From a virus: a stretch of 25,486 nucleotides of DNA. Made by a program: the position numbers and the translations under genes. Under the pieces are notes generated by a model. The model had not been told where the DNA came from, searched no databases, and worked only from the letters and a program-made list of their open reading frames with translations. Every line of letters begins with the position of its first letter. Positions within the stretch are counted from its first letter, which is position 1. This document shows, in pieces, positions 1,251-25,146 of the stretch. The stretch is from IMG/VR virus record IMGVR_UViG_3300009702_000076, positions 1 through 25,486 of that record, one strand, 5' to 3'.

Positions 1251-1287
1251 TGTAGGATCTCCTTGGTCTATAAGACCATCAAAATGT

Positions 1288-2963: not shown

Positions 2964-2964
2964 A

Positions 2965-9143: not shown

Positions 9144-9170
9144 GTCTCACCATGTTGTTAGGGTTATAGA

Positions 9171-10406: not shown

Positions 10407-10419
10407 ATTGTGTCCTAAG

Positions 10420-11385: not shown

Positions 11386-11822
11386 TAGTAGATGTTTCTA
11401 AGGTTTCCCATGACCTGTGGTTTGGCACCTGCACCTGTCGTAGGTGAGAACCGAACTCCACCCACTCCATCTTCTTTAGAGGCAGAGAGTCCAGGCACGG
11501 GCACTTCACCGGTCCTAGTGCCCTCTAGAAGCCCACCAAATCGAGTTTCAAGGGCAGGAGGTATCTCCAGGCCCACACGGCCATATGCCATCCCTATGAA
11601 GGCTGCTATGGCCACATTGATGACACCTCTGTTAGTTGAGGAGTCACCTGGGGCATAACCTGCATTCTCTAATGCGGCCCGTGCTAACTCAGATGCCATC
11701 TCTTGTACAATCACAACTGAAGCTGCATCATAGACACCACCTTCTGGCGTAAAGAGTCCAGAGAGTACATTAGGGCCGAGAACAGCAGTAATGTCGGCAT
11801 CTGTTAGATAGTTCGTTGTCAT
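11385..11822 (-). CDS. Head-tail connector, Mu gp36/DUF1320-like
   Basis: The 145-residue protein begins MTTNYLTDADITAVLGPNVL, the typical opening of gp36/DUF1320 connectors (YLT..D......G...L). It has a mostly helical middle (VIVQEMASELARAALENAGY) and a Gly/Pro-rich C-terminus. The family is placed between head and tail genes in Mu-like phages, as here. Its ATG directly follows an intrinsic terminator's T-run, which leaves no room for a normal Shine-Dalgarno site. Translation may therefore be weak or controlled by that structure. Confidence 0.75.
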   Translation of the reverse strand: MTTNYLTDADITAVLGPNVLSGLFTPEGGVYDAASVVIVQEMASELARAALENAGYAPGDSSTNRGVINVAIAAFIGMAYGRVGLEIPPALETRFGGLLEGTRTGEVPVPGLSASKEDGVGGVRFSPTTGAGAKPQVMGNLRNIY

Positions 11823-11861
11823 AAAAAAACCCGCCTAAGGAATGCGAAGTTTCACCTAGGC
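11823..11861 (-). terminator. Intrinsic terminator inside the late operon
   Basis: On the minus strand GCCTAGG (11861-11855) and CCTTAGGC (11840-11833) pair with one bulged T, followed by GGG and seven T residues at 11829-11823. The T-run abuts the ATG of the gp36-like gene. Partial termination here would make capsid-region RNA more abundant than connector and tail RNA. A second small hairpin (GGTGA-GACAT-TCACC) lies at 11879-11893. Confidence 0.7.
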
Positions 11862-11910
11862 ATCCAGTAGACGGGCCGGTGAGACATTCACCTATTGGTA
11901 TGGAAATGAG

Positions 11911-12336
11911 CTAAGATACAAGATGCTTAGCGATGGCTGCCAAACGCTTTTCATCAGCATCGAGACGAGGAGCAATGTCGGTCTTAAGTACCTTCAGTGA
12001 TTTGAAGGGAAGTGGAGACCGCATGTTCCTTTGGAAGAACTCAGAAGCAGGAGAACCTGTGAATCGTGAGGCTTGTCCACCTCTCTTCACATAGACTTCA
12101 AGCTTATGCTTGTAACCTTCTTCTGCTTGCTTCACTAGAGAATCATCTTCTACTAGCTTCTTGAGAGAAGGAAGGATAGATGAGGGGACAAGGAGCTTAT
12201 GCTTCCCTGCTGTGAGTAGCTTTCCCGCTACTTGATAGGTTAATGGGCGCACTACAACCTCAATCTCAGCCTGCGTATCATGCAGAGTGGGATCAAGTGC
12301 ATTAATCTTTGCGCCAGAAAAGTCTTGAATTGCCAT
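11911..12336 (-). CDS. Head-region protein of unknown function
   Basis: The 141-residue, Lys/Leu-rich protein lies between the major capsid gene and the connector block. It begins MAIQDFSGAKINALDPTLHD and has a predicted helical C-terminus (LDADEKRLAAIAKHLVS). AAAGGTG upstream of ATG is a plausible ribosome site. In Mu-like heads this slot often holds small, poorly conserved proteins; a capsid accessory or connector role is possible but not shown. The basic stretch YKHKLEVYVKRGGQASRFTG resembles no motif I know. Confidence 0.65.
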   Translation of the reverse strand: MAIQDFSGAKINALDPTLHDTQAEIEVVVRPLTYQVAGKLLTAGKHKLLVPSSILPSLKKLVEDDSLVKQAEEGYKHKLEVYVKRGGQASRFTGSPASEFFQRNMRSPLPFKSLKVLKTDIAPRLDADEKRLAAIAKHLVS

Positions 12337-12364
12337 GGTTGTCTACACCTTTATATTATGAAGG

Positions 12365-12404
12365 GGGGAGACTGGGATAACTACAAGAGTGTCCCAGCCT
12401 CCCC
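12365..12404 (-). terminator. Strong hairpin 3' of the major capsid gene
   Basis: On the minus strand GGGGAGGCTGGGA pairs with TCCCAGTCTCCCC over 13 bp with one G-U pair and a 14-base loop. No T-run follows, so it is probably not an efficient intrinsic terminator. It more likely protects the 3' end of abundant capsid mRNA or marks a processing site between the capsid gene and the next. Confidence 0.6.
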
Positions 12405-12413
12405 ACATGTCTA

Positions 12414-13334
12414 CTAGAGGTTACCGTAAACGAGCTGCCAGTTCTCTGGACCACTCGCCATATCGGCGCTAATGACATAAGGCACCTTGCCGGTACGCTC
12501 GATGGCCTCAAAGTCAGTGCTAGGAATCGCCTCAGGAGCCCGAAGGAACCCATGGCTGTAGGGCATACCCGCGCTCGTTGAAGCGATGGCCCATGCGCCT
12601 GGGGCAAGATAAGGAACCACAACGGTCATTAGGTCACCCTGGAAGCCGTTAGAGGCGCCCGCAGCGGCAGTAACAGCCGCACCGGGGTCAATGACACCGT
12701 TGGCATCCACGGTCACGATGCGAGTAGCGCCCGTGATTTCCTTCGCCGTGTGCTCAAGGTCAGCCGCAACGAAGAGATGGGAGGGACGGATGTTGAGCAC
12801 CTGACCCGACTCATCGGTACGCTGGCTCATGGCCGCCTTAGCCGCTGCATAAGCAGAGACCGAGAGAGCATCCGTGGTCTTGTTCGACTCTGTACCCCCG
12901 CCGAAAGCGAAGGGATGAGCCGTCGAGAACAGTGGAAGACCATCGGGACCAAGCTTAGCGTTTGCAGCAAAAGCTTCCCAGATGGCACGCTCAGGAAGGA
13001 AGCGAGCGGAGTCAATGAACTTCGCAAGCATACGGCCAACGTAACCCGAAGAATCACCCTCAACATCAATCTTGTTAAGGAAGATCCGGCGATAGATGGT
13101 TTCCACATCGTGGCTTGAACTCAGTGTACGAGTATCATCCTCAATCTGGTCCTCACCTACAACCTGGGTCCGTTGCTGACCAAGGGAGCGTGTGCCGCCG
13201 TTAACGAGCCGTGTTCCATTCAGAGGAACCTCAGCCGAGATTAGAGAGAGGGACGGACCCTGCTCTGCCATTGCAGCCATAAAGGTATCCGTGAACACCT
13301 GATTGGCCTGAAGTAGTTTATCGCGATTAATCAT
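12414..13334 (-). CDS. Major capsid protein, Mu gpT-like
   Basis: The 306-residue protein matches the length and pattern of the Mu gpT family. It has an N-terminal INRDKLLQANQVFTDTFMAAM helix, then a mid-section ending FLNKIDVEGD. Next come RFLPERAIWEAFAANA and DGLPLFSTAHPF, the latter strongly typical of Mu-type capsid proteins. A further block reads LFVAADLEHTAKEI. It forms the icosahedral shell. AGGAAACAACT precedes the ATG and is a good ribosome site. The GC-richer third positions here than in flanking genes fit a highly expressed gene. It lies directly after the decoration-like gene. Confidence 0.9.
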   Translation of the reverse strand: MINRDKLLQANQVFTDTFMAAMAEQGPSLSLISAEVPLNGTRLVNGGTRSLGQQRTQVVGEDQIEDDTRTLSSSHDVETIYRRIFLNKIDVEGDSSGYVGRMLAKFIDSARFLPERAIWEAFAANAKLGPDGLPLFSTAHPFAFGGGTESNKTTDALSVSAYAAAKAAMSQRTDESGQVLNIRPSHLFVAADLEHTAKEITGATRIVTVDANGVIDPGAAVTAAAGASNGFQGDLMTVVVPYLAPGAWAIASTSAGMPYSHGFLRAPEAIPSTDFEAIERTGKVPYVISADMASGPENWQLVYGNL

Positions 13335-13354
13335 AGTTGTTTCCTATATATTTC

Positions 13355-13789
13355 TTAGGCTTCAGTCTGTCCAAGAACGCCTACATGCACCCATGCTGTA
13401 GAACCATCAAGCTTAAGTAGTTTGCCTACATGAAGAGGATTCGCACCCGCTGCGGCAGCATCTGTAACAGTCTGGTCATCAAGAGCCGAAACTGTCTGAC
13501 CCGTCTGAGTAATAGCAAGACCCGAAGAAGCAAACGCTTCCACTTGGCCTACCTCAACGGATACAAAAAGATCACCCGAAGCACCTGCTGAGTTATCCAC
13601 ACTGGCCGTAGCTACACCAAGGTAACTTGCACCAGCTGTCGAAGCAGCAGGAACAGCGTAACCTGAAGAGTCAGCCATAACGTGTCCACCGTAGTAGATC
13701 TTCGTTGCAGCCTTCACAGGAAGCTGTAGGGTTTGTACGGAAGGCCCCATCTTGTTGCGGCCCGGCTTGTCGTCTGCTAGAGCAGTCAT
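13355..13789 (-). CDS. Head decoration/stabilisation protein candidate (DUF2190-like)
   Basis: The 144-residue, Ala/Val/Gly-rich, beta-type protein lies directly upstream of the major capsid gene. The pattern VKAATKIYYGGHVMADSSGYAVPA followed by YLGVATASVDNSAGASGD, with VEVGQV after it, resembles small capsid decoration proteins of the DUF2190 type. These bind capsid surfaces and stabilise the shell. A site AGGAC lies about ten bases before ATG. The family is suggested by pattern and context, not by a search. Confidence 0.7.
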   Translation of the reverse strand: MTALADDKPGRNKMGPSVQTLQLPVKAATKIYYGGHVMADSSGYAVPAASTAGASYLGVATASVDNSAGASGDLFVSVEVGQVEAFASSGLAITQTGQTVSALDDQTVTDAAAAGANPLHVGKLLKLDGSTAWVHVGVLGQTEA

Positions 13790-13807
13790 ATTGTTTGTCC
13801 TATTTCC

Positions 13808-14449
13808 TTAGGCCGCAGTGGCCTTGCTGATGGCTTCCTGAAGCGAGAATCGCCCAGTGGCCAGATACATATCAATGAGTCCCTGCTTGCTTGCAGGAAC
13901 ATCTTCACGAGAGAGAACAACAGTGTCACTCTCTACAGGAGGCTTAGAGGCCGTAACAGCCTCAGGGACAGCGGGAGAAGCTGCAGCAAGCTTTAGATGC
14001 TCGTCAAGCAGCTCATCACTCGTTCGTCCCAACTTGATGAGATAGTCTCGCTGAGCCACTGTAACGAGCTTATCGTTAATGGCCTTATCAACTCGGTTCT
14101 CTAACTTGAGGTTCTTTAGTTCCTCAACCGCTGAGAGTTCTACTGCATCCTTTGTAGGAGCCTCGTTCTCAACAGGTGCATCAGGAGCTGGTGCGTCCTC
14201 CATAGGAGCGGGTTCCTTGCCTGCAGCTTGGTCAATGGCAGGCTGTAGTGCATCACCAAGGGCCTCAAAGACTAGCTCAAGGAATGCAAACACATCCGCA
14301 TCAGTCGTCTCTTCATCGAGTCCTAGTGTAGCCTTAAGGCCATCAATGGGGGCTGCCTCAGGAGCACTCTGTGTGGCATCCTGAGGTGCATCTGGTTCCG
14401 CATCGGGAGCAGGCGCATCAGCTAGTTTAGTGGTTTCATCAGTCTTCAT
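13808..14449 (-). CDS. Internal-start scaffold protein (Mu Z / lambda Nu3 type)
   Basis: An in-frame ATG at 14449 lies exactly at the border between the protease domain and the acidic scaffold region. The protein begins MKTDETTKLADAPAPD. It is preceded by AAGGGA, seven bases before the ATG, a good Shine-Dalgarno site for an internal position. Independent translation would give a 213-residue scaffold in the same frame and with the same C-terminus as the protease, as Z does in Mu and Nu3 in lambda. The motif and spacing are seen; use of the start is inferred. Confidence 0.65.
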   Translation of the reverse strand: MKTDETTKLADAPAPDAEPDAPQDATQSAPEAAPIDGLKATLGLDEETTDADVFAFLELVFEALGDALQPAIDQAAGKEPAPMEDAPAPDAPVENEAPTKDAVELSAVEELKNLKLENRVDKAINDKLVTVAQRDYLIKLGRTSDELLDEHLKLAAASPAVPEAVTASKPPVESDTVVLSREDVPASKQGLIDMYLATGRFSLQEAISKATAA

Positions 14450-14950
14450 AAAAGTTTCCCTTGATAAATGTATCGGTTCTAACCCATCAATGAATGGTGT
14501 GTTTGTTAGGCCCACTTCAAATAACTCAGCACCAATCGACTTATTGGTCTTTCTGTCATTAGATGCAAACTTTACCACAGATGAACAATATTTGTACTCT
14601 TCATCTTGAATCATTTGTAATGCACGCTTGGTTGGTTCCACAAGTGCCCACAACTGGTCACCTATGATCTTCATCTTCTTCAACCAACCAGCGGCGGGTC
14701 TAGGCTGTCCTGGGACTGCACCATGACCATAAGATAGGTGGAGATCGTTATCAATCGCTTCAAAGTTAGCTACGATCTTCTCAAAGACACTATGGGTAAA
14801 GACTACATCCCCAACAGGGTGTCCCTTCCATGTGCCTTCTTTCGCAATGTTGATCCAAATCTTCCCGTCTTCTACAGCGGGAATAACAGCTGATAATGTA
14901 ATCAGGCTGTTGTCCTGTTTGGATCCAAATGCTTTGATGTTTTCTATCAT
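13808..14950 (-). CDS. Head maturation protease, Mu I-like, with C-terminal scaffold
   Basis: The N-terminal about 170 residues contain GHPVGDVVFTHSVFEKIVAN and LSYGHGAVPGQPRPAAGWLK, the signature of Mu I-type prohead proteases. They also contain YCSSVVKFASNDR and GAELFEVGLTNTPF. The rest is acidic, Ala/Pro/Glu-rich with a coiled-coil segment, typical of scaffolds. I choose ATG at 14950 because it overlaps the portal stop as ATGA. An in-frame ATG at 14983 (adding MGLTFSKSSYT) with AAGGG before it is the alternative and gives 391 rather than 380 residues. The protease cleaves scaffold during head maturation. A second internal start for scaffold alone is listed separately. Confidence 0.85.
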   Translation of the reverse strand: MIENIKAFGSKQDNSLITLSAVIPAVEDGKIWINIAKEGTWKGHPVGDVVFTHSVFEKIVANFEAIDNDLHLSYGHGAVPGQPRPAAGWLKKMKIIGDQLWALVEPTKRALQMIQDEEYKYCSSVVKFASNDRKTNKSIGAELFEVGLTNTPFIDGLEPIHLSRETFMKTDETTKLADAPAPDAEPDAPQDATQSAPEAAPIDGLKATLGLDEETTDADVFAFLELVFEALGDALQPAIDQAAGKEPAPMEDAPAPDAPVENEAPTKDAVELSAVEELKNLKLENRVDKAINDKLVTVAQRDYLIKLGRTSDELLDEHLKLAAASPAVPEAVTASKPPVESDTVVLSREDVPASKQGLIDMYLATGRFSLQEAISKATAA

Positions 14951-16338
14951 AGTGTAGCTAGACTTGCTGAACGTGAGCCCCATTCCCCGCCCTTGGGTTC
15001 TAATCCTTGAGATCGTCGAAGCTCATCATTGGTTACTGTACCTGCATTGATACCATCGGGTGTCACTGTGGGTACATCTTCCTGAGAGGGTGAGAAGCTA
15101 AGCTTGGGGATAGCGGGGATTTCGTTTCCAAAGAGATGAGAGTTTAGTTGAGTTGTAGGGGCTGCCCAATAGGTCTGTAGTGTTTGTGCGAGTCTATCAG
15201 ACTGTGCTTGAATACGAGGAAGGAAGGTTGCTTTGAGTTGTGTTTCAGCTAATGCTCTATTGCCTGATATCTCACCACCTCCAAATGGAAGTGTGGAGCC
15301 CACTAGGGCTTCTGCATAAGCTTCGTTATAGTTAGCAATCGCTGCAAGATGTGGAGACTGTTGTAAAGCAGATGTAGCATCTACAATGTTAATAGGATCA
15401 GAGCCATCGGCTAGTGATTCAAACACGGCTACTTGGTCACCATTAAGGTTCGATAGTCCTTGCATCATTGCATCTCTCACCTCTGCCGGTGAGTTACTAT
15501 CAACTTTACCATAAATAAAGGGTTCTGCAAGTCTTTCTAAGGCGGTTTGATGCCATAGTCTTGCCCAATGTTTGAATACCCATATCCATGCAAGTGTATG
15601 AAACGTGCCAGATTGTGTAGGGGGCTCGCCTCTTGAGGGCGTATGAATGATCCATCTGTTGGGTGAAGATTGTTCTATATTAGCCCAATAATAGATACTA
15701 GACTGATCAATAGGAGTGATATCTGGAGGTACTTCACTGCTCCATACTCGTATTTCAGTGTCCCAGTTCTGTGAGAATCGAATATCTCTAGCCTGTACTA
15801 GCCTTGGTGTGGACACATAGACATTGTTGACTAAGGACCAATCGTGCTCAGCGGCTGCAAATCCTACTTGTTCTGCATATAAGAGACTTGTGAGGAAGTC
15901 AGTCCAACCTGGGGTCTCTTGCTGTATCTTGATAAGTACATCTGCTGCAAGTTGAGAGACAGGACGATCATCTCCGGGTTCTATCGTTAGCTCACCACTG
16001 GCTACAGATAGAGCTAGAGATTCTACTAAGGATCGAAGCTTAGTGTCTGTACGCATCATATGGGCAGAGAAGTCGGCCCATCGTTCAGTTTGTCCAGCTA
16101 GAATCTGTTGAAGTATGTTGGCCACTGCTGCGGGTGTGTAGCCCGCAAACTGGTGCATACGGGCCGTATAGCGTGGCGCGTATTCAGTGGCGGCAGAGGG
16201 CGGCTGAGCGCCCTTAACGGCCTTGTTTGACTTAGGTGCAGACAGCTGTAACATCTCCTTAGGTGGAGGTGGGGTCAATACATCCTCTTTTGGAGTAGAT
16301 GTGAACAAGTTAGCTAGCTTTGAATAGACGCTCATCAA
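14947..16338 (-). CDS. Portal protein, Mu gp29/DUF935-like
   Basis: The 463-residue protein has a disordered N-terminal about 60 residues (PPPPKEMLQ, Lys/Ala/Pro-rich). The DUF935 pattern follows. It includes MMRTDTKLRSLVESLALSVA, TDFLTSLLYAEQVGFAAAEHDW, HTLAWIWVFKHWARLWHQTA and ALERLAEPFIYGKVD. Also present are SNLNGDQVAVFESLADGSD, STLPFGGGEISGNRALAE and SQGLEPKGGEW. It forms the dodecameric DNA channel at one capsid vertex and docks the terminase. ATG codons at 16338 and 16335 are adjacent; either could be used. It overlaps the terminase stop and the protease start. Confidence 0.9.
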   Translation of the reverse strand: MMSVYSKLANLFTSTPKEDVLTPPPPKEMLQLSAPKSNKAVKGAQPPSAATEYAPRYTARMHQFAGYTPAAVANILQQILAGQTERWADFSAHMMRTDTKLRSLVESLALSVASGELTIEPGDDRPVSQLAADVLIKIQQETPGWTDFLTSLLYAEQVGFAAAEHDWSLVNNVYVSTPRLVQARDIRFSQNWDTEIRVWSSEVPPDITPIDQSSIYYWANIEQSSPNRWIIHTPSRGEPPTQSGTFHTLAWIWVFKHWARLWHQTALERLAEPFIYGKVDSNSPAEVRDAMMQGLSNLNGDQVAVFESLADGSDPINIVDATSALQQSPHLAAIANYNEAYAEALVGSTLPFGGGEISGNRALAETQLKATFLPRIQAQSDRLAQTLQTYWAAPTTQLNSHLFGNEIPAIPKLSFSPSQEDVPTVTPDGINAGTVTNDELRRSQGLEPKGGEWGSRSASLATL

Positions 16339-17696
16339 AACACCTTAGATAGTCCACGAGCTTTACGCGGTGATGAAGAAGTAACAAGGCCGGGAGTATT
16401 TGAGGGAAGCTTATCAAATGCTGCGACAAAGGCATCTACTTGGTCATCATGTACATCGCCTCTACCTGAGAAGCCGTTGACTTCCTTAAGGAAATCTTGG
16501 GACCAAGGTGCATCCGTAGGTACAATCACTGTACCCTTCCTAACTTCTTGAGCCAATGGCTGTGCTCTTGTATACTTGTCTTTACTTGCATTCTCAGAGG
16601 TCAAACGTATTCCATCTCTAGAAAGGAAAGATGCAGATCCTTTTTCTACACCGGCTGTGTACCAGTGGAATGAGCATCTGTACTTATCTTGATATTGCCT
16701 TATCACAGGAACAAACTCAGGAGCTTCAACTTGTCTTCGGATTACGTCCTTAACATAAGTTAGTCCTGAGCGGAGTTCTTTGATTAATACTACTATAGCA
16801 GAGAAATCTGCTCTTGTCGAGTTAGTGTATGCTAAATCTACACCACCTTGTATTACTCCTGATGTGGGTATGTCTTGTAATAGGCATGTAGAGACATGTG
16901 GGAATACCTTAGAGCCCTTTGATACAGGTGTTTGATCATAGAGAGCACCCCATACATAGGGTCCTACATCGTTCCTAACTTTCTTCAAGAAATCTAAGGG
17001 TCTGCCTTCTTCCCATAAGGATTCACCTGTAAATGGGTCAATGGCGTGCATAACTACAGATTCCCAGCCTTCTGCAAGTAGTCTTCCGGAGAGATCATCT
17101 GGGTTCCATCGGGTCTGAATGAGAATAATAGAGCCTGTGGGATGGACTCTGGTTGTGGCTACTGAAGTATACCAATCGTAGATGATGTTTCTACGGGCAA
17201 GAGAGTTCGCCTCTTCCATGTTCTTCAATGGATCATCTATGACTAAGACTCCATCTACGCCTTCTCCTGTTAAGCCTCCGCCAATACCAGTGGCTAGTAG
17301 TCCTCCACCTTCTACTGTTCTCCATTCTTCTAGCTTGTTTGCTGCGGGTGCCATGGTGACTCCTGCAGCTGTGGCATATTCTCGACACTTTCTAGACTTC
17401 TTTAAGCTTAGTGACGCAGAGTATGAAGCATAAGCATGAGTTCTCTCCGGTCTTGATCGAATCTCATTAGCTATAAAGTGGAGTATTGTTTCAGTCTTGC
17501 CGAACTGTGGAGGTACATTGACAATGAGCTTCGTAGGTTCTCTGAAGGCTCTCTCTAGTGCATCTACTAGAGGCTGTAACCAATAAGGGTATTGGAACGT
17601 GGGAGATACAACATGGATGAACTCCTTAAGAGATAGATCTCTCTTTACTGGAGCTTCTCTAGTTTTATCTAGCCACTTCTGTGATACAAGTCTCAT
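16335..17696 (-). CDS. terL: Terminase large subunit
   Basis: The 453-residue packaging motor shows an ATPase N-terminal half and nuclease C-terminal half. The Walker A-like motif is PPQFGKTE (residues 62-69), Walker B is VLVIDDP (150-156) and the coupling motif region is IQTRW (193-197). The RNase H-like nuclease has GVDLAY with an aspartate at about 287 and HDDQVDA (415-421). The protein cuts phage DNA and drives it through the portal. It starts with ATG overlapping the end of the upstream gene (ATGA-type), and its stop overlaps the portal start. All expected motifs are present and the length is normal. Confidence 0.96.
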   Translation of the reverse strand: MRLVSQKWLDKTREAPVKRDLSLKEFIHVVSPTFQYPYWLQPLVDALERAFREPTKLIVNVPPQFGKTETILHFIANEIRSRPERTHAYASYSASLSLKKSRKCREYATAAGVTMAPAANKLEEWRTVEGGGLLATGIGGGLTGEGVDGVLVIDDPLKNMEEANSLARRNIIYDWYTSVATTRVHPTGSIILIQTRWNPDDLSGRLLAEGWESVVMHAIDPFTGESLWEEGRPLDFLKKVRNDVGPYVWGALYDQTPVSKGSKVFPHVSTCLLQDIPTSGVIQGGVDLAYTNSTRADFSAIVVLIKELRSGLTYVKDVIRRQVEAPEFVPVIRQYQDKYRCSFHWYTAGVEKGSASFLSRDGIRLTSENASKDKYTRAQPLAQEVRKGTVIVPTDAPWSQDFLKEVNGFSGRGDVHDDQVDAFVAAFDKLPSNTPGLVTSSSPRKARGLSKVF

Positions 17697-18469
17697 TTAG
17701 TATCATCAGGTAATGTAGGTAGCACAGTAATGATATTAGTATCTTGTGCGGCTAATGTAGCAAGAAGCTCGTCTCTGGCTCCTTCAGAGAGTGCAGGCAT
17801 TACAGCATCTAGGATCTCTTCTGCTGTTCTCTGTCTTGCGGTAGTATCCTTCTCTGTGATCCTTCCCCAGTCATATCTAGTGTATGGAGAGTTGAGGGCC
17901 ATAAACTTCGCTGCATCAAGTCTGTACTTCATGGGAGCATCTGGGGAGTTGATAACTTCTTTGATGAGGGATACTCCACATGTCATATTGCTCTCTACGG
18001 CCCGTGAGATGGCCGGTGCGTACCCACATGGGTCTTCCACTGCTCCTGACAGCACATCGGACACTAGGTAGGCTGACAGGCCCGTTGTGATGGCAGCTTG
18101 TCCTAGTCCTAGTCCAGCTTGTACCCTACGTAGCAATGAGGCCCACTTGGCTTCTTCTGTCTGATCTACAGTGACTTCTAGACCGAACTCTAGTTCTGCT
18201 AGTTCTTCTATATGGGTTTTAGGAGGGATAAGCTCATCCAACGTATGGTTAGGATGAGGATGCACGAACATATGGTATGCAGCGAGAAGTACATAGTATC
18301 TATTCGCCATAGCCTTCTCAGGCATTGGATAGTCCCATCCTATCTCTGCGGCTAATGTTGCATGAGTCCCTGGGGGTTCACCCATGACTCCATCTAGATA
18401 CTCAAGACTAATGTCTATAAGCTTTGTCTCACCTAGATATGATAAGCAAGTTCTGGATACTTTGATCAT
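17693..18469 (-). CDS. First gene of the late operon, small terminase subunit candidate
   Basis: The 258-residue protein is mainly helical (for example TEEAKWASLLRRVQAGLGLG, about 105-125, and ARQRTAEEILDAVMPALSEG near the C-terminus). It lies directly upstream of terL and overlaps its start by four bases. That is the usual place of the small terminase subunit, which recognises DNA for packaging. I see no clear helix-turn-helix, so the name rests on position. The predicted promoter lies only a few bases before the ATG, so the transcript may have almost no leader. Other possibilities are a terminase accessory protein or regulator. Confidence 0.6.
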   Translation of the reverse strand: MIKVSRTCLSYLGETKLIDISLEYLDGVMGEPPGTHATLAAEIGWDYPMPEKAMANRYYVLLAAYHMFVHPHPNHTLDELIPPKTHIEELAELEFGLEVTVDQTEEAKWASLLRRVQAGLGLGQAAITTGLSAYLVSDVLSGAVEDPCGYAPAISRAVESNMTCGVSLIKEVINSPDAPMKYRLDAAKFMALNSPYTRYDWGRITEKDTTARQRTAEEILDAVMPALSEGARDELLATLAAQDTNIITVLPTLPDDTK

Positions 18470-18526: not shown

Positions 18527-19333
18527 ATGCCTAGACGTAACTACAACATGTTTATTCCTAAGTCTGAGTCCACTCGTTGGCTGCGATTGTTCATGAAGGG
18601 AAAGAGGATCTATGAAGGACCTCACTCTAAGGGTCCAGTGACTTGGAACACGGGTCCTAAGTATGTTCGTATTGGTAACATAAGGGAGACTAGGCAGTCT
18701 TGTCTGTTAACAATAATGATACAATACATTACATTCTGTTATGAGCTTCCTGATGTGAATCCATTTAGGCGGGGTCATAAGAGCATAAATCTTATGTTGA
18801 GAGATATCCGCAAGGAGGGAAGCTTAACATGGAACAATAACTACTTAGACAAGCTGTGGGTTCAGGCAAGGAACATGTGCTCCATTGGAGATGTGCCCAC
18901 TGTGCCCTGGGAAGGCACCTACAAGGAGATTGCAGAGTCTATATGCATGGAGCTACGGGAAGACATGCTATACGGCCCTGAGAGGGAATGCTGGTACTAT
19001 CCTGATCATAAGGGAGTATGGAAGCGTAGTAATGATATGAAGTGGCGGAGAGCTGCTGACGTTGTATTCAAAGTATTAGAAACACATAGATTAGGTGTTT
19101 ATGGTATGAAGGCGGCTCTTGATAAGAGTACAAGACGTATTGTAGCAAAGAGTATAAAGGAAAGACTAGTAGGTCAGGTGTTGATAGAACTCACCAAAAT
19201 GGAATGTATGCGCTTTGCAGAGAATATTAGGGATCCTCAACAACGTACACTCTATGGAATAGGTCCTAAAGAGCCCAAAGTAGACATGAATGTTAAGCGT
19301 CGTTTGAAGTTTCAGCGGGAGATAGTTGAATAA
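18527..19333 (+). CDS. Basic protein of unknown function
   Basis: The 268-residue protein is rich in Arg, Lys and Trp, with no signal peptide, membrane helix or known catalytic motif. Segments such as NDMKWRRAADVVFKVLETHR and RRIVAKSIKERLVGQVLIEL are helical and positively charged, so nucleic acid binding is possible. There is no Shine-Dalgarno site, and an extended -10 promoter lies immediately before the ATG, which suggests leaderless translation. A second ATG at 18548 is possible but also lacks a site. The gene diverges from the late operon and could encode its regulator, though I see no helix-turn-helix. Its last 41 bases overlap the opposite-strand gene. Confidence 0.7.
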   Translation: MPRRNYNMFIPKSESTRWLRLFMKGKRIYEGPHSKGPVTWNTGPKYVRIGNIRETRQSCLLTIMIQYITFCYELPDVNPFRRGHKSINLMLRDIRKEGSLTWNNNYLDKLWVQARNMCSIGDVPTVPWEGTYKEIAESICMELREDMLYGPERECWYYPDHKGVWKRSNDMKWRRAADVVFKVLETHRLGVYGMKAALDKSTRRIVAKSIKERLVGQVLIELTKMECMRFAENIRDPQQRTLYGIGPKEPKVDMNVKRRLKFQREIVE

Positions 19334-19679
19334 AGGGAGTAGTTTTCTCTTGTTTCCTTAGTCTACGAAGGTGATTCTTCCTAGATTCTCCTTTGTGGCG
19401 GCCTGGAAACATCTTGTCATGTTCACTCACCACCTTGTTGTTGTTCCAATCAACATTCTCAGAAGGCTTTATATAGTATCCAGGAGGTAGAAAACAGACT
19501 GTCTCCTTATTGAGTACGTAAATACGTACGTCTTCTGTCCCACGGGTACAGGCAATACATTCATTATCGACTAGAGAGATTAAGTGCTTAGGACATTTCA
19601 TATTCATAGTATACCATGGATGTGCGGCGGTGTTGACAGTGTGGGATACGGTGTTACAATGTGGAGGTAGGTAGTTCAT
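19293..19679 (-). CDS. Small CxxH/CxxC zinc-ribbon-like protein
   Basis: I choose ATG at 19679 (128 residues) because AAAGGAG lies five bases upstream; an earlier in-frame ATG at 19727 lies inside a terminator-like hairpin. A third ATG at about 19607 would start MNMKCPKH. The motif C-P-K-H, ten residues, then C-I-A-C could bind a zinc ion. The later part (DKMFPGRHKGESRKNHLRRL) is strongly basic, compatible with DNA binding or an HNH-like nuclease, but no full HNH motif was found. The gene points against the preceding rightward gene and overlaps its end by 41 bases. An outward promoter within its 5' coding region could make an antisense RNA. Confidence 0.65.
   Translation of the reverse strand: MNYLPPHCNTVSHTVNTAAHPWYTMNMKCPKHLISLVDNECIACTRGTEDVRIYVLNKETVCFLPPGYYIKPSENVDWNNNKVVSEHDKMFPGRHKGESRKNHLRRLRKQEKTTPFIQLSPAETSNDA
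19633..19660 (+). promoter_or_regulatory. Sigma-70-like promoter antisense to the small zinc-ribbon gene
   Basis: TTGACA (19633-19638) and TACAAT (19655-19660) are separated by 16 bp. Transcription would start near 19667 and run outwards, opposite to the leftward gene in which the promoter lies. Both hexamers are close to consensus. Confidence 0.6.
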
Positions 19680-19740
19680 ACCTGCTCCTTTCAGAACCCT
19701 ATGACGCGCCAGGGGTGGTTGCGGCATAGGGTTTTGTTTT
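19667..19740 (+). ncRNA. Candidate antisense RNA over the start of the leftward gene
   Basis: A short transcript of about 70 bases is predicted between the promoter at 19633-19660 and a terminator-like hairpin. It would be complementary to the start codon (19677-19679), the Shine-Dalgarno site (19685-19691) and the leader hairpin of the 128-residue gene. It could block that gene's translation. Both ends are inferred from motifs; no transcript data are available. Confidence 0.45.
19695..19740 (+). terminator. Intrinsic terminator of the candidate antisense RNA
   Basis: AACCCTATG (19695-19703) pairs perfectly with CATAGGGTT (19725-19733). The 21-base loop contains a further CCA/TGG pairing, and a T-rich tail (TTTTGTTTTG) follows. 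Read on the minus strand the same hairpin forms in the leader of the leftward gene, just before its ribosome site. Confidence 0.6.
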
Positions 19741-19796
19741 GTCTTAATGTATAATGCTGCCTTATTAGTATTAGTTGATGTTTTATGTGTGGACCG

Positions 19797-19855
19797 TCCC
19801 TAAATAGGGAGGTGGGCCAGAGGATTTATCGTTGTCTGGCCCACCCTTGCTTTTA
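19797..19855 (+). terminator. Two adjacent hairpins, the second terminator-like
   Basis: TCCCTA-AA-TAGGGA (19797-19810) is followed at once by GGTGGGCCAGA (19811-19821) paired with TCTGGCCCACC (19835-19845) across a 13-base loop. CTTGCTTTTA follows. It could end rightward transcription, but the arms belong to a wider family of repeats in this region, so protein binding is equally possible. Confidence 0.5.
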
Positions 19856-20110
19856 TAATACACCTATAAAATAGAGGTATTATGAGATGAGAAGGGAAGG
19901 TGGGCCACTTGGGCCACTGAAATAGAACTTTTTCAACTCTTCTGTGAGAACCATGGTTCTGTGCTGCTCAGAAAAGTTTGGTTAGTAATTATAAGATCTC
20001 TGGCCCATAATTATAATTATAGGGTATAAACACCGTAAAAACAGTGGTTTTAGGGTGGGCCAGAGGGTGGGCCAGAGGGGCTACAGTGTACCTAAGAACT
20101 CTGGCCCACC
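19811..20110. repeat. Dispersed GGTGGGCCAGAG repeats
   Basis: Exact plus-strand copies of GGTGGGCCAGAG lie at 19811-19822, 20054-20065 and 20066-20077; the last two are in direct tandem. A perfect reverse-strand copy is at 20099-20110 (CTCTGGCCCACC). Shorter or partial copies lie at 19835-19845, 19899-19907 and 19998-20007, and a GGGCCA at 19911-19916. The set spans about 300 bp with no supported gene. Such clusters are typical of initiator or repressor binding sites; the function here is unknown. Confidence 0.75.
19947..19960. repeat. 14-bp perfect palindrome
   Basis: AGAACCATGGTTCT is a perfect 14-bp palindrome in the non-coding control region, between copies of the GGGCCA repeat. Its symmetry fits an operator for a dimeric regulator. 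Confidence 0.55.
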
Positions 20111-20112
20111 TA

Positions 20113-20130
20113 TGTGTCAAATATGACACA
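20113..20130. repeat. Inverted repeat TGTGTCA-AATA-TGACACA
   Basis: Perfect 7-bp arms lie at 20113-20119 and 20124-20130 around a 4-bp centre. It directly follows the last GGGCCA repeat. ACAGTGTA-type words recur beside it (20084-20091, 20128-20135 and 20147-20153), which may be half-sites of the same binding protein. Confidence 0.6.
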
Positions 20131-20170
20131 GTGTATCCAAAAGTTCACAGTGTATCAAATATGCTACACA

Positions 20171-20210
20171 CCTACATGAACCTACATGCACCTACATGTA
20201 CCTACATGTA
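20171..20210 (+). repeat. Iteron-like array of four 10-bp CCTACATGNA units
   Basis: Four head-to-tail decamers CCTACATGAA, CCTACATGCA, CCTACATGTA and CCTACATGTA occupy 20171-20210 without gaps. A fifth degenerate CTACATGTA is at 20234-20242. The unit is about one helical turn, so bound proteins would line up on one face of the DNA. Adjacent A/T-rich stretches (20008-20030) and the following polymerase-like gene make an origin of replication the leading guess. No initiator gene is recognised. Confidence 0.7.
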
Positions 20211-20239
20211 ATAGTTACAGTGTGAGCATATAACTACAT

Positions 20240-20255
20240 GTATCAACCATGATAC
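20240..20255. repeat. Inverted repeat GTATCA-ACCA-TGATAC
   Basis: Perfect 6-bp arms lie at 20240-20245 and 20250-20255, 21 bp upstream of the -35 box at 20277. Together with the repeat over the next -10 box, it suggests regulated transcription. Confidence 0.55.
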
Positions 20256-20276
20256 CCAAATAGTTACCTTTCTTGC

Positions 20277-20304
20277 TTGACAACCGCTCAGCCAGTGTTA
20301 CACT
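20277..20304 (+). promoter_or_regulatory. Promoter with inverted repeat over the -10
   Basis: TTGACA (20277-20282) and TACACT (20299-20304) are 16 bp apart. CAGTGT-T-ACACTG (20293-20305) is a perfect inverted repeat covering the -10 box, an ideal repressor site. Transcription would start near 20311. Confidence 0.6.
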
Positions 20305-20372
20305 GTGTATAGGATTCAGCATATATCTTTCATAGCTAATCCTTTCTTTCGGGAAAAACTTGTTACTTCGGG

Positions 20373-20400
20373 AGCCTACTGAGAAATCGGTAGGCTTTCG
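20373..20400 (+). terminator. Terminator-like hairpin between two promoters
   Basis: AGCCTAC (20373-20379) pairs with GTAGGCT (20390-20396) around a 10-base loop, followed by a weak T-rich tail. It would end a transcript of about 85-90 bases from the promoter at 20277, or act as an attenuator. Confidence 0.5.
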
Positions 20401-20412
20401 TCGTTTTATAGC

Positions 20413-20440
20413 TTGACTATTTAGTCCTTAGCTGTATACT
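20413..20440 (+). promoter_or_regulatory. Promoter for the polymerase-like gene
   Basis: TTGACT (20413-20418) and TATACT (20435-20440) are 16 bp apart. Transcription would start near 20447, about 44 bases before the ATG at 20491. No clear Shine-Dalgarno site lies before that ATG. Confidence 0.6.
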
Positions 20441-20490
20441 GTTATTAGTGGTTTTAACAGTACCACCCTATTCATGAAAGTAAAAAAGCT

Positions 20491-21471
20491 ATGAAAGATG
20501 TAAAGACTATGATCCAACCCTCAATTCCACAGAAGTTTCCCAAAGGTTTATGGGGAGCGATCAAGAGGAACAACAAGAAAGAGCCTGTCATCCTGTTCAA
20601 CAAGAAGAGGCTGAAGAGCACAAGCTATCTGAAGTTCCTGAATATCCTAAGAAAGATGTACTACTTGCTAGAGGACAAGGAGGAACCCTACCTCAGGCTC
20701 TACTCCCATGTCATGAAGGGCTACCTTGGGGATAAATACATGTATTATGTTTCCTTGGCTGAAGCAGATGGGGTCTTGAGTCTCCACCTAGAGTGCATGC
20801 CAGGGAAGTCCAGAGTCTACAAGTTAGATATTGATAGTCTTCATCGAGCTTATGTCTATCTATCTGATGTAGATCCTCTAGCTCCTGAGATCCAGAAGTT
20901 CCTGAAGAAAGAAGAATCTAAGGAATGGAGGAAGGCATACAAGAAGCTACACAAGTGGGGCATGGACTCTTCTCAGATCACCTACATGAAGAACATGAAC
21001 ATCAGGGCAGTGAACATGTATAATCAGTTGTTTCCTAAGAGTCTTCCTATTGAGCCTTGGATCAAGGTAGGTGACGATCACAAGAGGGTATATACAGCAG
21101 CTGGGAACATCCCTAGTGATCTCAGGCACCAGTGTCTTGTAGATAGCACAGGAGAGCCTCTAGTAGAGTTTGATCTGAAGTATGCCAACACCACCTTGTT
21201 AGCTATGCATCTTGGCTTAGAGAAGCTCCTAGCTCTACTGAAGGATGATTCTAAGGACTTCTACACTCTAGTAGGGTTACAAGCTATAGAGAATAAGAAG
21301 TATCATAGGATAATAGAATTATATGAATTAGATGTAGAAGAAGACAGGGAGGAGGGAGGGGGTCCGGCATTGTGCAGGAAGTTAGAAGACAACACTCATT
21401 CTACATCTGAAACTAAGGGCGATTATGAGATAACAAACTGTCCCCCGACCACACTTTCACTAGACCCTTAG
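20491..21471 (+). CDS. Family A-like DNA polymerase, N-terminal part (palm motif A)
   Basis: This frame encodes 326 residues before a TAG. The first 190 residues are Lys-rich and helical with no recognised exonuclease motif. RVYTAAGNIPSDLRHQCL (199-216) followed by EPLVEFDLKYANTTLLAMHL (222-241) matches the palm entry and motif A of a polymerase family found in phages and mobile elements. Asp228 would be the metal ligand. The last 60-70 residues are Glu/Gly-rich and look unlike a folded domain. The missing motifs B and C lie in the -1 frame that overlaps from 21429. I infer that this and the next frame form one polymerase, joined by frameshifting, or broken by a lost base. Confidence 0.7.
   Translation: MKDVKTMIQPSIPQKFPKGLWGAIKRNNKKEPVILFNKKRLKSTSYLKFLNILRKMYYLLEDKEEPYLRLYSHVMKGYLGDKYMYYVSLAEADGVLSLHLECMPGKSRVYKLDIDSLHRAYVYLSDVDPLAPEIQKFLKKEESKEWRKAYKKLHKWGMDSSQITYMKNMNIRAVNMYNQLFPKSLPIEPWIKVGDDHKRVYTAAGNIPSDLRHQCLVDSTGEPLVEFDLKYANTTLLAMHLGLEKLLALLKDDSKDFYTLVGLQAIENKKYHRIIELYELDVEEDREEGGGPALCRKLEDNTHSTSETKGDYEITNCPPTTLSLDP
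21348..21363 (+). other. G-rich purine tract in the polymerase gene
   Basis: GGGAGGAGGGAGGGGG is a purine run that could form a two-layer G-quadruplex or stall ribosomes. It lies about 80 bp before the overlap of the two polymerase frames. Confidence 0.4.
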
Positions 21472-22025
21472 GCAAGCATATTACGAACGCTGGACTGAAC
21501 ACTATTCATAACCAAGACAAGGTGAATAGGAAGATGAGGGTAGTCCTAGATACGATAGCTGAACACTGTGGAGAGCAGGAAGCAGAAACACTACGAGAAT
21601 GGTGCTTAGAGCTAGATAGAAAGCGTGGAAGTGCCTTTAGGAAGCTCACTGAGTATGAGTGGGAGTATATCCAAGTGAGCCTATCGAAGACCTTAGCTAC
21701 TTCGGGAGTCCATGTGTTCCCTATTCACGATGCCATCTATGCTGAAAAGGATAGTGTTTCCAAGGTATTAGAGGTGTTACAGCAACTAGGTACAGCAAAG
21801 TGCAGCCATATGTCTTGTAGTGCGGAGAATATAGAGAAGCTCACAGAAGGCTCTCTAAGGCTTCCTAAGCTACAAGATGACCTAGGACCCATGGAAGACT
21901 TTAGAATCGATTCTAGGCCCCTTCTCGTGGCAGCACGGGGGTATATAGAGGAACTTGCTGAGGTACAGATAGAACAATGGAGAACGTGCTTGACTACTGA
22001 GACACAGGAGTTAAGCTATGCATAA
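21429..22025 (+). CDS. Family A-like DNA polymerase, C-terminal part (motifs B and C)
   Basis: The frame is open from 21429. A stand-alone gene would begin at GTG 21522 or ATG 21534, giving at most 167 residues. The stretch before those codons reads RPLGKHITNAGLNT, which has the Arg-x3-Lys spacing of polymerase motif B (compare RRSAKAINFGLIYG in Pol I). Further on, VHVFPIHDAIY gives motif C with Asp at 21729-21731; the usual HDE is HDA. Because motif B lies upstream of any start codon, this frame is probably the continuation of the preceding one by a -1 shift between 21429 and 21471. The C-terminal about 75 residues are of unknown role. The end overlaps the next gene. Confidence 0.65.
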   Translation, partial: DNKLSPDHTFTRPLGKHITNAGLNTIHNQDKVNRKMRVVLDTIAEHCGEQEAETLREWCLELDRKRGSAFRKLTEYEWEYIQVSLSKTLATSGVHVFPIHDAIYAEKDSVSKVLEVLQQLGTAKCSHMSCSAENIEKLTEGSLRLPKLQDDLGPMEDFRIDSRPLLVAARGYIEELAEVQIEQWRTCLTTETQELSYA

Positions 22026-22059
22026 CAAATCAACCGAAAAACAGGAAGGAAAAGCGAAA

Positions 22060-22671
22060 ATGATTGTACAGATGGACATGTCGGGGAACGAAGTAGCGCG
22101 GTTTAGTAGTGCTAATGCTGCTGCTAAAGCCACTAGTTTCGATAAGGGAGCTATCTCTAGATGCTGTAGAGGGAAGCTAGGCAAGCACAAAGGATTTAGG
22201 TGGGTGAAGGAGGGGGGTGAAGCTACACAAGTTCACCCCTTAGAAACAAAGGATATTAAGCAGGTTCACCCCCGTGAAGTAGTAATGGCTGCACAGGGGG
22301 GTGAAGTAGGGGGTGAAGTAGGGGGTGAAGTAGGGGGTGAAGTAGAGGACGTCAAGGCTAGGTTTGAGAGAGAGAAGCATTCATTCTCTGTAGAGGATAT
22401 AGCTAAGGCAGATAAGAAAGACACTACTGTAGAAGAGTCAGAACCTTATGAAAGCCCGAGTACTAGTAAAGAAGAGCTTATTAGTATGATCCACAAGCTA
22501 GACGATAGGGTTTCTGAACTAAGAGAGCATCTTATCGTAACCAATAAACAACTAGTTACAGCTCAAAAGGAACTAGAGGCTGTTAAACAGGTTGTTATTG
22601 AACAAGGACGAGAACTGCGGGACTATGTAGTTTCTCATGAGGAAAAACTAAACAAGAAGGAAACAGTATGA
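22060..22671 (+). CDS. NUMOD1-headed coiled-coil protein, first paralogue
   Basis: I choose ATG at 22060 (203 residues) because the paralogue downstream starts at the same place (MIVQM) and GGAAGGA lies nine bases upstream; an ATG at 22018 would add 14 residues and overlap the polymerase. Residues 1-50 (VARFSSANAAAKATSF, then GAISRCCRGKLGKHKGFRW) match NUMOD1, a DNA-binding module of homing endonucleases. No nuclease domain follows. Instead there is a linker with four GGEV repeats (encoded by 12-bp tandem repeats) and a C-terminal coiled coil (LDDRVSELREHLIVTNKQLV). It may be a DNA-binding oligomer, possibly regulatory. It overlaps the next gene by ATGA. Confidence 0.75.
   Translation: MIVQMDMSGNEVARFSSANAAAKATSFDKGAISRCCRGKLGKHKGFRWVKEGGEATQVHPLETKDIKQVHPREVVMAAQGGEVGGEVGGEVGGEVEDVKARFEREKHSFSVEDIAKADKKDTTVEESEPYESPSTSKEELISMIHKLDDRVSELREHLIVTNKQLVTAQKELEAVKQVVIEQGRELRDYVVSHEEKLNKKETV
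22214..22239. repeat. Inverted repeat GGGGTGAA-10-TTCACCCC
   Basis: Perfect 8-bp arms at 22214-22221 and 22232-22239 flank 10 bp inside the NUMOD1 gene. The same word recurs in the tandem array downstream and as TTCACCCCC at 22265-22273. Confidence 0.6.
22297..22344 (+). repeat. Four 12-bp tandem repeats GGGGGTGAAGTA
   Basis: Four exact, gapless copies lie at 22297-22308, 22309-22320, 22321-22332 and 22333-22344. They encode the GGEV linker repeats. As in-frame 12-mers they can vary in number by slippage without breaking the gene. Confidence 0.85.
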
Positions 22672-23108
22672 TTGTACAAATGAATATGGACGGGAACGAG
22701 ATGGCTAGGTTTAGTAGTGCTAATACTGCTGCTAGGGCTACAGGATGTAATAAGGGAGCTATCTCAAGGTGCTGCAGAGGGATACTACACAGCCACCACG
22801 GCTTCAAGTGGAAGAAAGAAGTTAGCAAAGAGAAACAACAAGCAACACAAGCTGCTAAAGATGATGTTTGTGCTGAGCTTCGTAGTCTAACTGATGCTGT
22901 GTTTAAGCTTATTAGTGAGAATGAGAAGCTTAAGGACCGTATAACAGACCTGCAGGACAAGGCTTGGTTGGAGATAGTCGTCAATAAAAGGAAAGACACT
23001 ATAGCTTCACGCGCTGAACTCTTAGCTGCCGTAATCAATATCACACTAGGTGAAGAGGATGCTTCTGAAGAAGTAGACGATCATGGCTTTGTTAAGCTTT
23101 TAGACTGA
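22668..23108 (+). CDS. NUMOD1-headed coiled-coil protein, second paralogue
   Basis: The 146-residue protein starts MIVQMNMDGNEMARFSSANT and continues GAISRCCRGILHSHHGFKWK, almost the same as the head of the preceding protein. The two clearly arose by tandem duplication. After the NUMOD1-like module comes a coiled-coil region (ELRSLTDAVFKLISENEKLKD) and a different C-terminal segment (RAELLAAVINITLGEEDASE). No nuclease motif is present. The start overlaps the previous stop (ATGA), so the pair are co-translated and might form hetero-oligomers. The function is unknown; the family is known from homing endonucleases, where it binds DNA. Confidence 0.78.
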   Translation: MIVQMNMDGNEMARFSSANTAARATGCNKGAISRCCRGILHSHHGFKWKKEVSKEKQQATQAAKDDVCAELRSLTDAVFKLISENEKLKDRITDLQDKAWLEIVVNKRKDTIASRAELLAAVINITLGEEDASEEVDDHGFVKLLD

Positions 23109-23185: not shown

Positions 23186-23213
23186 TTGACTTGTACCACA
23201 CCCATGGTACTAT
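23186..23213 (+). promoter_or_regulatory. Promoter with palindromic spacer
   Basis: TTGACT (23186-23191) and TACTAT (23208-23213) are 16 bp apart. GTACCA-6-TGGTAC (23193-23210) is a perfect inverted repeat within the spacer and -10, so a repressor could sit on the promoter. Transcription would start near 23220. Confidence 0.6.
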
Positions 23214-23219
23214 ACGTTC

Positions 23220-23282
23220 ATAGTCATTGATATCCATCTTGCCCCCCGTAGGTCGTCCATTGCCTACGGGGGGCATTCTTTT
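23220..23282 (+). ncRNA. Candidate small RNA of about 60 bases
   Basis: The promoter at 23186-23213 is followed by a very strong terminator and then a second promoter, with no open reading frame of useful size between them. The predicted product is a short RNA of which most is the terminator hairpin. It could be a decoy, antisense or attenuator RNA. No transcript evidence is available. Confidence 0.4.
23241..23282 (+). terminator. Strong intrinsic terminator
   Basis: GCCCCCCGTAGG (23241-23252) pairs perfectly with CCTACGGGGGGC (23263-23274) around a 10-base loop, followed by ATTCTTTTG. The 12-bp GC-rich stem makes termination very likely. It isolates the KTSC gene from the upstream genes. 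Confidence 0.85.
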
Positions 23283-23292
23283 GTGCAGGGGG

Positions 23293-23320
23293 TTGACAGC
23301 CTACAACAGCTGGTTATTGT
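23293..23320 (+). promoter_or_regulatory. Promoter for the KTSC gene
   Basis: TTGACA (23293-23298) and TATTGT (23315-23320) are 16 bp apart. It starts just after the terminator, so the KTSC gene has its own transcript from near 23327. Confidence 0.55.
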
Positions 23321-23357: not shown

Positions 23358-23606
23358 ATGATGAACCACCCCAGCCCCACAGATGCCATTGTCACCGTCC
23401 GCAACGTGAAGAAGTCTTCATTCGTACAGAGGATCGCCTACTGCCAGTCTACTCAGGAGCTAACCCTTGAGTTCCTCAGCGGTACTTATACCTACTCTGA
23501 CGTGCCTGCTATGACTGCCAAGACCCTCTGGGAGGCTAAGAGCTATGGCAAGGCCTACAACCGTCTCATCAAGGGTCAGTTCAAGAGCGAGAAGGTTGCA
23601 TTATAG
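23358..23606 (+). CDS. KTSC-domain protein
   Basis: The 82-residue protein consists almost entirely of a KTSC domain. The pattern is SSFVQRIAYCQSTQELTLEF, then SGTYTYSDVPAMTAKTLWEA, then KSYGKAYNRLIKGQF. This domain takes its name from conserved residues and occurs alone in phages and bacteria; its molecular role is not settled, and nucleic acid binding has been suggested. Two ATG codons are adjacent (23358 and 23361). It is a single-gene transcription unit between a dedicated promoter and a strong terminator. The codons are GC-richer than in its neighbours, suggesting strong expression or separate origin. Confidence 0.88.
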   Translation: MMNHPSPTDAIVTVRNVKKSSFVQRIAYCQSTQELTLEFLSGTYTYSDVPAMTAKTLWEAKSYGKAYNRLIKGQFKSEKVAL

Positions 23607-23745: not shown

Positions 23746-23773
23746 TTGACTTCTAACCCACATGTGGGATAAT
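23746..23773 (+). promoter_or_regulatory. Promoter with CCCACATGTGGG palindrome in the spacer
   Basis: TTGACT (23746-23751) and GATAAT (23768-23773) are 16 bp apart. The perfect 12-bp palindrome CCCACATGTGGG (23757-23768) fills most of the spacer and ends at the -10 box. It drives the three-gene unit at 23799-24701. Confidence 0.65.
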
Positions 23774-24701: not shown

Positions 24702-24871
24702 TAGTCATATAACATAGAGAGTATGTTCTCATAGTCATACTCATCACCAGTAGTGATAGTGTAGCTAGTTGAAAACACAGGAGGAAGATCGAGAGGAAGC
24801 TCCAAGCGTTGGGGCTTCCTTTCTTGGTCCTGCCTCAACTTCTTAAGTTCTTCCTCTAGGAGATAGTCCAT
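24698..24871 (-). CDS. 57-residue acidic protein, last gene of the Tad2 operon
   Basis: The start ATG shares its A with the stop of the Tad2 gene (TAATG), which strongly supports translation although no Shine-Dalgarno site is seen. The protein begins MDYLLEEELKKLRQDQERKP, a charged helix, and ends with an acidic and aromatic tail (GDEYDYENILSMLYDY). No domain was recognised. The stop overlaps that of the convergent rightward gene. A small acidic phage protein next to an anti-defence gene may itself be an inhibitor or DNA mimic, but that is only a guess. Confidence 0.65.
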   Translation of the reverse strand: MDYLLEEELKKLRQDQERKPQRLELPLDLPPVFSTSYTITTGDEYDYENILSMLYDY

Positions 24872-25146
24872 TATTCTACCGTTTCAGAGCACCAGTCTTC
24901 TGCAAGCATATCCCCTTGACTAGCAAGCCATCCAGGCTGCCATACCTTCTGTGCAGTCATGATTACAAAGTAACCACCTACATGCAAATCTCCACTTGTA
25001 TGAAACTTGCGAGTACGACCATTCACCAAGTCCTGTGAGATAGTGACAGAAGGCATATAGCATACCCATTGTCCTTTACCGTTCCATCCCTCACGCATGA
25101 TCTTATGACCCTGCTTTGCTTTCTCTAATGCTTCACTAAAATTCAT
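24871..25146 (-). CDS. tad2: Tad2-family anti-defence protein (DUF2829)
   Basis: The 91-residue protein has the full DUF2829/Tad2 pattern. It opens MNFSEALEKAKQGHKIMREG, followed by WNGKGQWVCYMP, a middle GGYFVIMTAQKVWQPG, and the strongly conserved WLASQGDMLAEDW near the end. Tad2 proteins are sponges that bind the cyclic nucleotide signals made by Thoeris defence (gcADPR isomers), and some bind CBASS signals, so that the effector is not triggered. The length is normal (about 90 residues). The start overlaps the upstream stop (ATGA), and the stop shares an A with the next start. It lies in a separate leftward operon of small genes. Confidence 0.92.
   Translation of the reverse strand: MNFSEALEKAKQGHKIMREGWNGKGQWVCYMPSVTISQDLVNGRTRKFHTSGDLHVGGYFVIMTAQKVWQPGWLASQGDMLAEDWCSETVE

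Follow-up and report, generated by a model that had tools for sequence, protein, structure and literature searches.

A divergent phage intergenic region with 12-mer clusters, operator-like dyads and a predicted start-codon helix: a possible replication origin and early switch

Does the repeat-dense region ahead of a presumed polymerase gene in this phage start replication, control early transcription or do both? The window analysed here is the entire linear IMG/VR virus record IMGVR_UViG_3300009702_000076 (25,486 bp), which is incomplete, a fragment. Its head and tail genes, read leftward, occupy positions 1 to 18469 and include a large terminase (PHROG 38, E 2e-66) and a Mu-type portal (Pfam E 5e-40). 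Between the leftward ORF that ends this side and the rightward genes lies a divergent intergenic region, a gap of 763 bp at 19728-20490. No DNA-level similarity to phage records was found for the record, and an Rfam search gave no match.

The earlier note on this DNA had proposed a combined replication origin and operator at 20054-20305. That combination fits the anatomy of the region, given the 12-mer clusters around an AT-rich stretch, the trio of operator-like dyads, the dyad on a -10 element and the divergent 763-bp setting, but its boundaries are wrong and strand skew lends the origin no support. Taken as a unit, the interval splits the structure: the likely origin array (19811-20110) lies mostly to its left, and 20113-20305, as far as its sequence indicates, looks like operators plus a promoter (Table 1). 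Repeats are far denser than chance would give, with 23 repeated 10-mers in 20054-20305 (dinucleotide-shuffle mean 0.7, maximum 12 in 1000 shuffles) and 51 across 19728-20490 (2.7 in shuffles, maximum 20); within the window, repeats are denser only in the gene at 22018, where they are coding. That gene belongs to a side observation of its own, two adjoining paralogous proteins (22018-23108) with NUMOD1/I-HmuI-like DNA-binding domains and no recognised nuclease domain, the first of which carries a GGEV tandem repeat.

Table 1. Coordinates of the genes, repeats and predicted elements in and around the divergent intergenic region.
Feature	Position	Strand	Remark
Presumed small terminase gene	17693-18469		assigned by position only
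268-aa protein, candidate replication protein	18527-19333	+	sub-threshold D5_N match
Leftward ORF	19293-19727	-	
12-mer GGTGGGCCAGAG, left cluster	19811-19822	+	exact
12-mer, left cluster	19834-19845	-	inverted, 11/12
Diverged 12-mer GGTGGGCCACTT	19899-19910	+	9/12
AT-rich spacer, candidate melting region	19917-20053	.	65.7% AT
12-mer in AT-rich part	19998-20009	-	inverted, 10/12
12-mer, right cluster	20054-20065	+	exact
12-mer	20066-20077	+	exact, tandem to the preceding copy
12-mer	20099-20110	-	exact, inverted
Operator-like dyad 1	20113-20130	+	TGTGTCA-AATA-TGACACA
Leftward promoter-like site	20130-20158	-	TTGATA-17-TACACT
Operator-like dyad 2	20151-20168	+	TGTATCA-AATA-TGCTACA; absent from the earlier note
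Four gapless decamers CCTACATGNA	20171-20210	+	10-bp period
Fifth near-decamer ACTACATGTA	20233-20242	+	
Operator-like dyad 3	20239-20256	+	TGTATCA-ACCA-TGATACC
Rightward sigma70-like promoter	20277-20304	+	TTGACA-16-TACACT, TG before -10
Dyad CAGTGTTACACTG over -10 of the 20277 promoter	20293-20305	.	CAGTGT-T-ACACTG
Leader segment pairing with 20487-20502	20322-20337	+	16 contiguous pairs, one G-U
Terminator-like stem-loop in leader	20369-20400	+	14 pairs
Second rightward promoter-like site	20413-20440	+	TTGACT-16-TATACT
Start-codon region of presumed polymerase gene	20487-20502	+	includes ATG; paired by leader
Presumed A-family/TV-Pol-like polymerase, N-terminal part	20491-21471	+	DLR, EFDLKYA, DFY motifs
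Polymerase continuation, another frame	21432-22025	+	RPLGK, PIHDAIYA motifs

Two 12-mer clusters flank an AT-rich stretch

The tandem 12-mers GGTGGGCCAGAG and their inverted copy, which the earlier note had described, are found at 20054-20077 and 20099-20110, as members of an array that begins 243 bp left of the interval in that note and runs from 19811 to 20110 with four exact and three diverged copies in both orientations. Allowing up to two mismatches, the window holds 8 copies against 2.1 expected, and 6 of these fall within the array. They form a left cluster (19811-19910, in which the copies at 19811 and 19834 make an 11-bp hairpin) and a right cluster (20054-20110) on either side of a spacer that ranks within the most AT-rich 0.7% of equal windows. 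The inner part of this spacer, 19970-20030, reaches 73.8% AT (top 0.2%), and only three 50-bp segments of the record are less stable than 19982-20031.

Replication origins of PICIs have two iteron sets, one on either side of an AT-rich region (PMC6092414). The present array has that layout, with its short repeats in two sets and, between them, a stretch that belongs to the most AT-rich 1% of the window, and this match suggests a PICI-like origin. As in PICI and SaPI origins (PMC6092414, PMC7581432), the two repeat sets lie beside presumed replication genes; unlike in PICIs, the record carries the head and tail genes of a tailed phage, the repeats do not directly adjoin the end of a Rep helicase gene, and one diverged repeat sits within the AT-rich part. 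A second likeness is to SCCmec, in which a TV-Pol-type polymerase is coupled with an intergenic repeat region regarded as a putative origin (PMC7581432). The CCPol-MP-Cch2 replicon shares with this locus an A-family (TV-Pol) polymerase accompanied by direct and inverted intergenic repeats, whereas here neither a Cch2-like helicase nor an MP (SSB) was recognised and the polymerase is recognised at the level of motifs.

Other origin signals are missing from the region. Cumulative GC skew, which the earlier note had offered as a check, has no minimum here, and third-position GC skew on the plus strand does not switch at the site, with values of about +0.10 on its left side and about +0.09 on its right. 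We did not count a sign change in AT skew near 20 kb as an origin signal, as it coincides with the change in gene direction. The intergenic region contains no DnaA box (TTATCCACA at 0-1 mismatch) and no cluster of them.

Operator-like dyads and divergent promoters

Right of the array, the remaining elements listed by the earlier note were all recovered: TGTGTCA-AATA-TGACACA at 20113-20130, the four decamers at 20171-20210, GTATCA-ACCA-TGATAC at 20240-20255 and CAGTGT-T-ACACTG at 20293-20305, which covers a TACACT -10 element (20299-20304). Two of these dyads, treated separately there, form one 18-bp family, TGTATCANNNNTGATACA, together with the dyad at 20151. At up to two mismatches the window contains 3 such dyads against 0.18 in shuffles, a ratio that is somewhat flattering because the consensus was derived from the same three copies. 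In the overall dyad count, 20054-20305 has 5, with 0.98 in shuffles and a maximum of 5 in 500.

The dyads are interleaved with promoter-like sites. The leftward site has its -35 element inside dyad 2 and its -10 element adjoining dyad 1. Consensus promoters in this record are no more than suggestive, with 13 sites matching at least 10 of 12 positions against about 5 (at most 12) in shuffles. ACAGTGT half-sites occur additionally at 20083, 20128, 20147 and 20217; CAGTGT-N-ACACTG as a widespread dyad was rejected, since it shows no enrichment past the one perfect copy. Early operators of the lambda OR/OL type comprise three related dyads of about 18 bp around divergent promoters. The present region likewise has several copies of one dyad at or next to divergent promoters, three of about 18 bp, but unlike the adjacent lambda sites they are spaced 38 and 88 bp start to start, and a scan of early-side and flanking proteins of this incomplete record identified no CI-like repressor gene.

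Promoter-like regions of related design occur elsewhere in the window. At 23190-23320 and 23746-23773, two further intergenic rightward sites bear palindromes over the spacer or the -10 element (GTACC..GGTAC and CCCACATGTGGG) that differ from the 20293 dyad, and terminator-like hairpins near them give an arrangement resembling 20277-20400. The small ORF at 23358-23606 presumably resembles a KTSC-domain protein. On the opposite flank, 19633-19750 holds a strong promoter-like site (TTGACA-16-TACAAT, 11/12, with TG) followed by an 84-nt stretch that folds with z of -5.3 and has a stem and a T-rich tail at its end. It may encode a short RNA, antisense to the leftward ORF at 19293-19727 in the 5' end of that ORF.

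The presumed polymerase gene and its leader

The earlier note had placed its interval directly upstream of a polymerase. The gene starts 186 bp past that interval, and its identity as a polymerase is backed by motifs: the ordered DLR, EFDLKYA, RPLGK and PIHDAIYA correspond, as judged by eye against Microcystis phage MAP_030 and plasmid TV-Pols, to the β-hairpin Arg, motif A Asp, fingers RxxxK and motif C Asp of TV-Pols, a family whose motif list is published and whose members are often linked to D5-like helicases (PMC2579912). Searches of Pfam, PHROGs and NCBIfam gave no informative match for the gene. A profile HMM built from five TV-Pols (MAP_030, chosen by its motifs in this analysis, a relative, one Calothrix plasmid and two Polaromonas plasmids) aligned motif A correctly at a non-significant E of 4-6.5. 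TV-Pol-like polymerases that are unannotated or labelled 'hypothetical' also lie on a small Calothrix plasmid and on Polaromonas plasmid pW9NP1, one of them adjoining a RepA gene. The ORF is broken, with motifs A and C in different frames; the switch falls somewhere from about 21427 to 21468, close to five consecutive C, and may reflect a sequencing error, a real mutation or frameshifting. A PICI-type origin would be expected directly 3' of its initiator (rep) gene, with a helicase-type initiator bound to the repeats and autonomous replication of the region. On the left flank, the protein encoded at 18527-19333 matches D5_N at E 0.0028 and 18.4 bits, under the Pfam cutoff of 22.4, and its gene ends 477 bp before the 12-mer array with an opposing ORF between. 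An AlphaFold model of this protein alone (pLDDT 36) was unusable. No helicase with a credible Walker A motif was found in the incomplete record. Both the polymerase and the D5_N assignments are leads.

The collections searched gave no relatives in which the repeats could be compared. None of the polymerase or the D5_N-like protein was found in viral contigs, and none of the polymerase core in genome contigs, plasmids or phages; among phages the top match was to Microbacterium phage Huwbert (E 1), dismissed for falling on the strand opposite the annotated gene. Terminase relatives reach at most 46% identity; those tested have no detectable relative of the polymerase, and comparing the early-side proteins of the window with their loci gave one short match, to ORF 24871-25146. 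No portal relatives were found, and the DNA patterns of the 12-mers and decamers did not recur in viral contigs. The searches covered viral contigs, genome contigs, plasmids and phages, in collections that may lack close neighbours of this record.

The most unusual part of the region is a predicted helix over the ATG of the presumed polymerase gene, which lies outside the interval of the earlier note. Transcription from the 20277 promoter, presumed to start near 20311, gives a leader of about 180 nt whose 5' part is complementary to the start-codon region. Its 16 pairs are an outlier (the runner-up among 24 genes has 11); when the leader was shuffled 2000 times by mononucleotide, one shuffle attained as many. 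The leader folds with z of -7.1, and its interior without both complementary arms still scores -4.6, so that its structure is not owed to the 16-pair helix alone. For RNA that starts at 20311, the predicted ensemble has the ATG fully paired. Transcripts of the 20413 promoter-like site, starting near 20447, would lack the complementary segment; their ATG is predicted to be largely paired too, in a weaker local fold. For a short terminated leader RNA acting on this mRNA, the predicted duplex of -42.7 kcal/mol lies about 2.3 s.d. below shuffles, at least 1 in 300 of which were lower, which makes the trans-acting version weaker than the cis one. Alternatively, the two arms may be an inverted duplication of a translation start; the minus-strand copy reads ATGAAAGATATATGCTGA, a five-codon frame.

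A composite region and its rivals

We give an even chance to a composite of an origin core (19811-20110), a promoter/operator block and an RNA leader that controls the presumed polymerase. What we read directly is the layout of the sequence and its predicted pairing, and from these we infer binding, melting, repression and translational control. In the composite, a phage- or host-encoded initiator would bind the 12-mers of both clusters and open the AT-rich stretch between them. The segment 20113-20310 would switch divergent early transcription: the three 18-bp dyads would be sites for one dimeric regulator that blocks the leftward promoter at 20158-20130 and is bound some 60 bp upstream from where rightward transcription begins, the decamers could form a side-by-side array for a second protein, and the further dyad covers the rightward -10 of the 20277 promoter. 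Pairing of the 5' leader with the start codon would make RNA from the 20277 promoter poorly translated; alternatively, the short terminated leader RNA may act on mRNA from the 20413 promoter. Together the three blocks would tie the supply of polymerase to use of the origin. Against the composite stand the mixed orientation of the 12-mers, most of them in hairpin-capable inverted pairs that would equally suit operators or RNA structures, the lack of a skew switch, a DnaA-box cluster, a credible helicase and relatives in which to assess conservation, and the weak D5_N and TV-Pol scores.

Its main and serious rival, which we hold to be possible but less probable, is transcriptional control only: 12-mers, dyads and decamers would be operators through which two to four regulators, of phage or host, act on the divergent promoters, and replication would start elsewhere. 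As that account would have it, the repeats are interspersed with promoter-like sites on both strands, some bases of promoter elements are shared with dyads and the skew does not switch; yet the 12-mer clusters flank the AT-rich stretch and not the promoters nearest the genes, and 6-7 GC-rich sites over 300 bp exceed what operators typically need. The inverted 12-mer pairs 19811/19834, 19998/20054 and 20066/20099 fold into strong stems, and each end of the region has other leaders or short RNAs with low z-scores for structure, so the 12-mers might instead be RNA hairpins, serving attenuation or protein binding in long leaders of divergent transcripts, and not DNA sites. We judge this improbable: two copies are tandem and direct, the 19998 copy has diverged, and, as inverted repeats always fold well, the folding is no independent evidence. 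Partition sites are often built from short tandem repeats, and the presumed small terminase gene is 1.3 kb away, which could point to a site for DNA packaging (pac/cos) or partition, recognised by the small terminase or by a protein like ParB. Two ORFs between the terminase genes and the repeats, the position of the repeats on the early-gene side and the failure to recognise a partition gene among the proteins searched make such a site very improbable.

Most likely, then, the region is an origin/operator of a known general kind, real and non-random but ordinary in type. A more specific picture, which we consider unlikely, is a tailed phage that replicates from a two-cluster origin in the style of PICIs and uses a TV-Pol-like polymerase of its own; a leader or a same-strand short RNA, made from an operator-controlled promoter beside the origin, would hold off translation of that polymerase in a manner resembling plasmid copy-number control. 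Were the locus an operator region only, it would be an ordinary early switch. If the composite is correct, a phage lineage that has no close relatives in the collections searched would gain an origin open to experiment, and TV-Pol-like polymerases, mostly known from mobile elements, would be tied to an origin made of repeats in a phage that forms virions; RNA control over the supply of a phage replication enzyme could then be tested on the start-codon helix.
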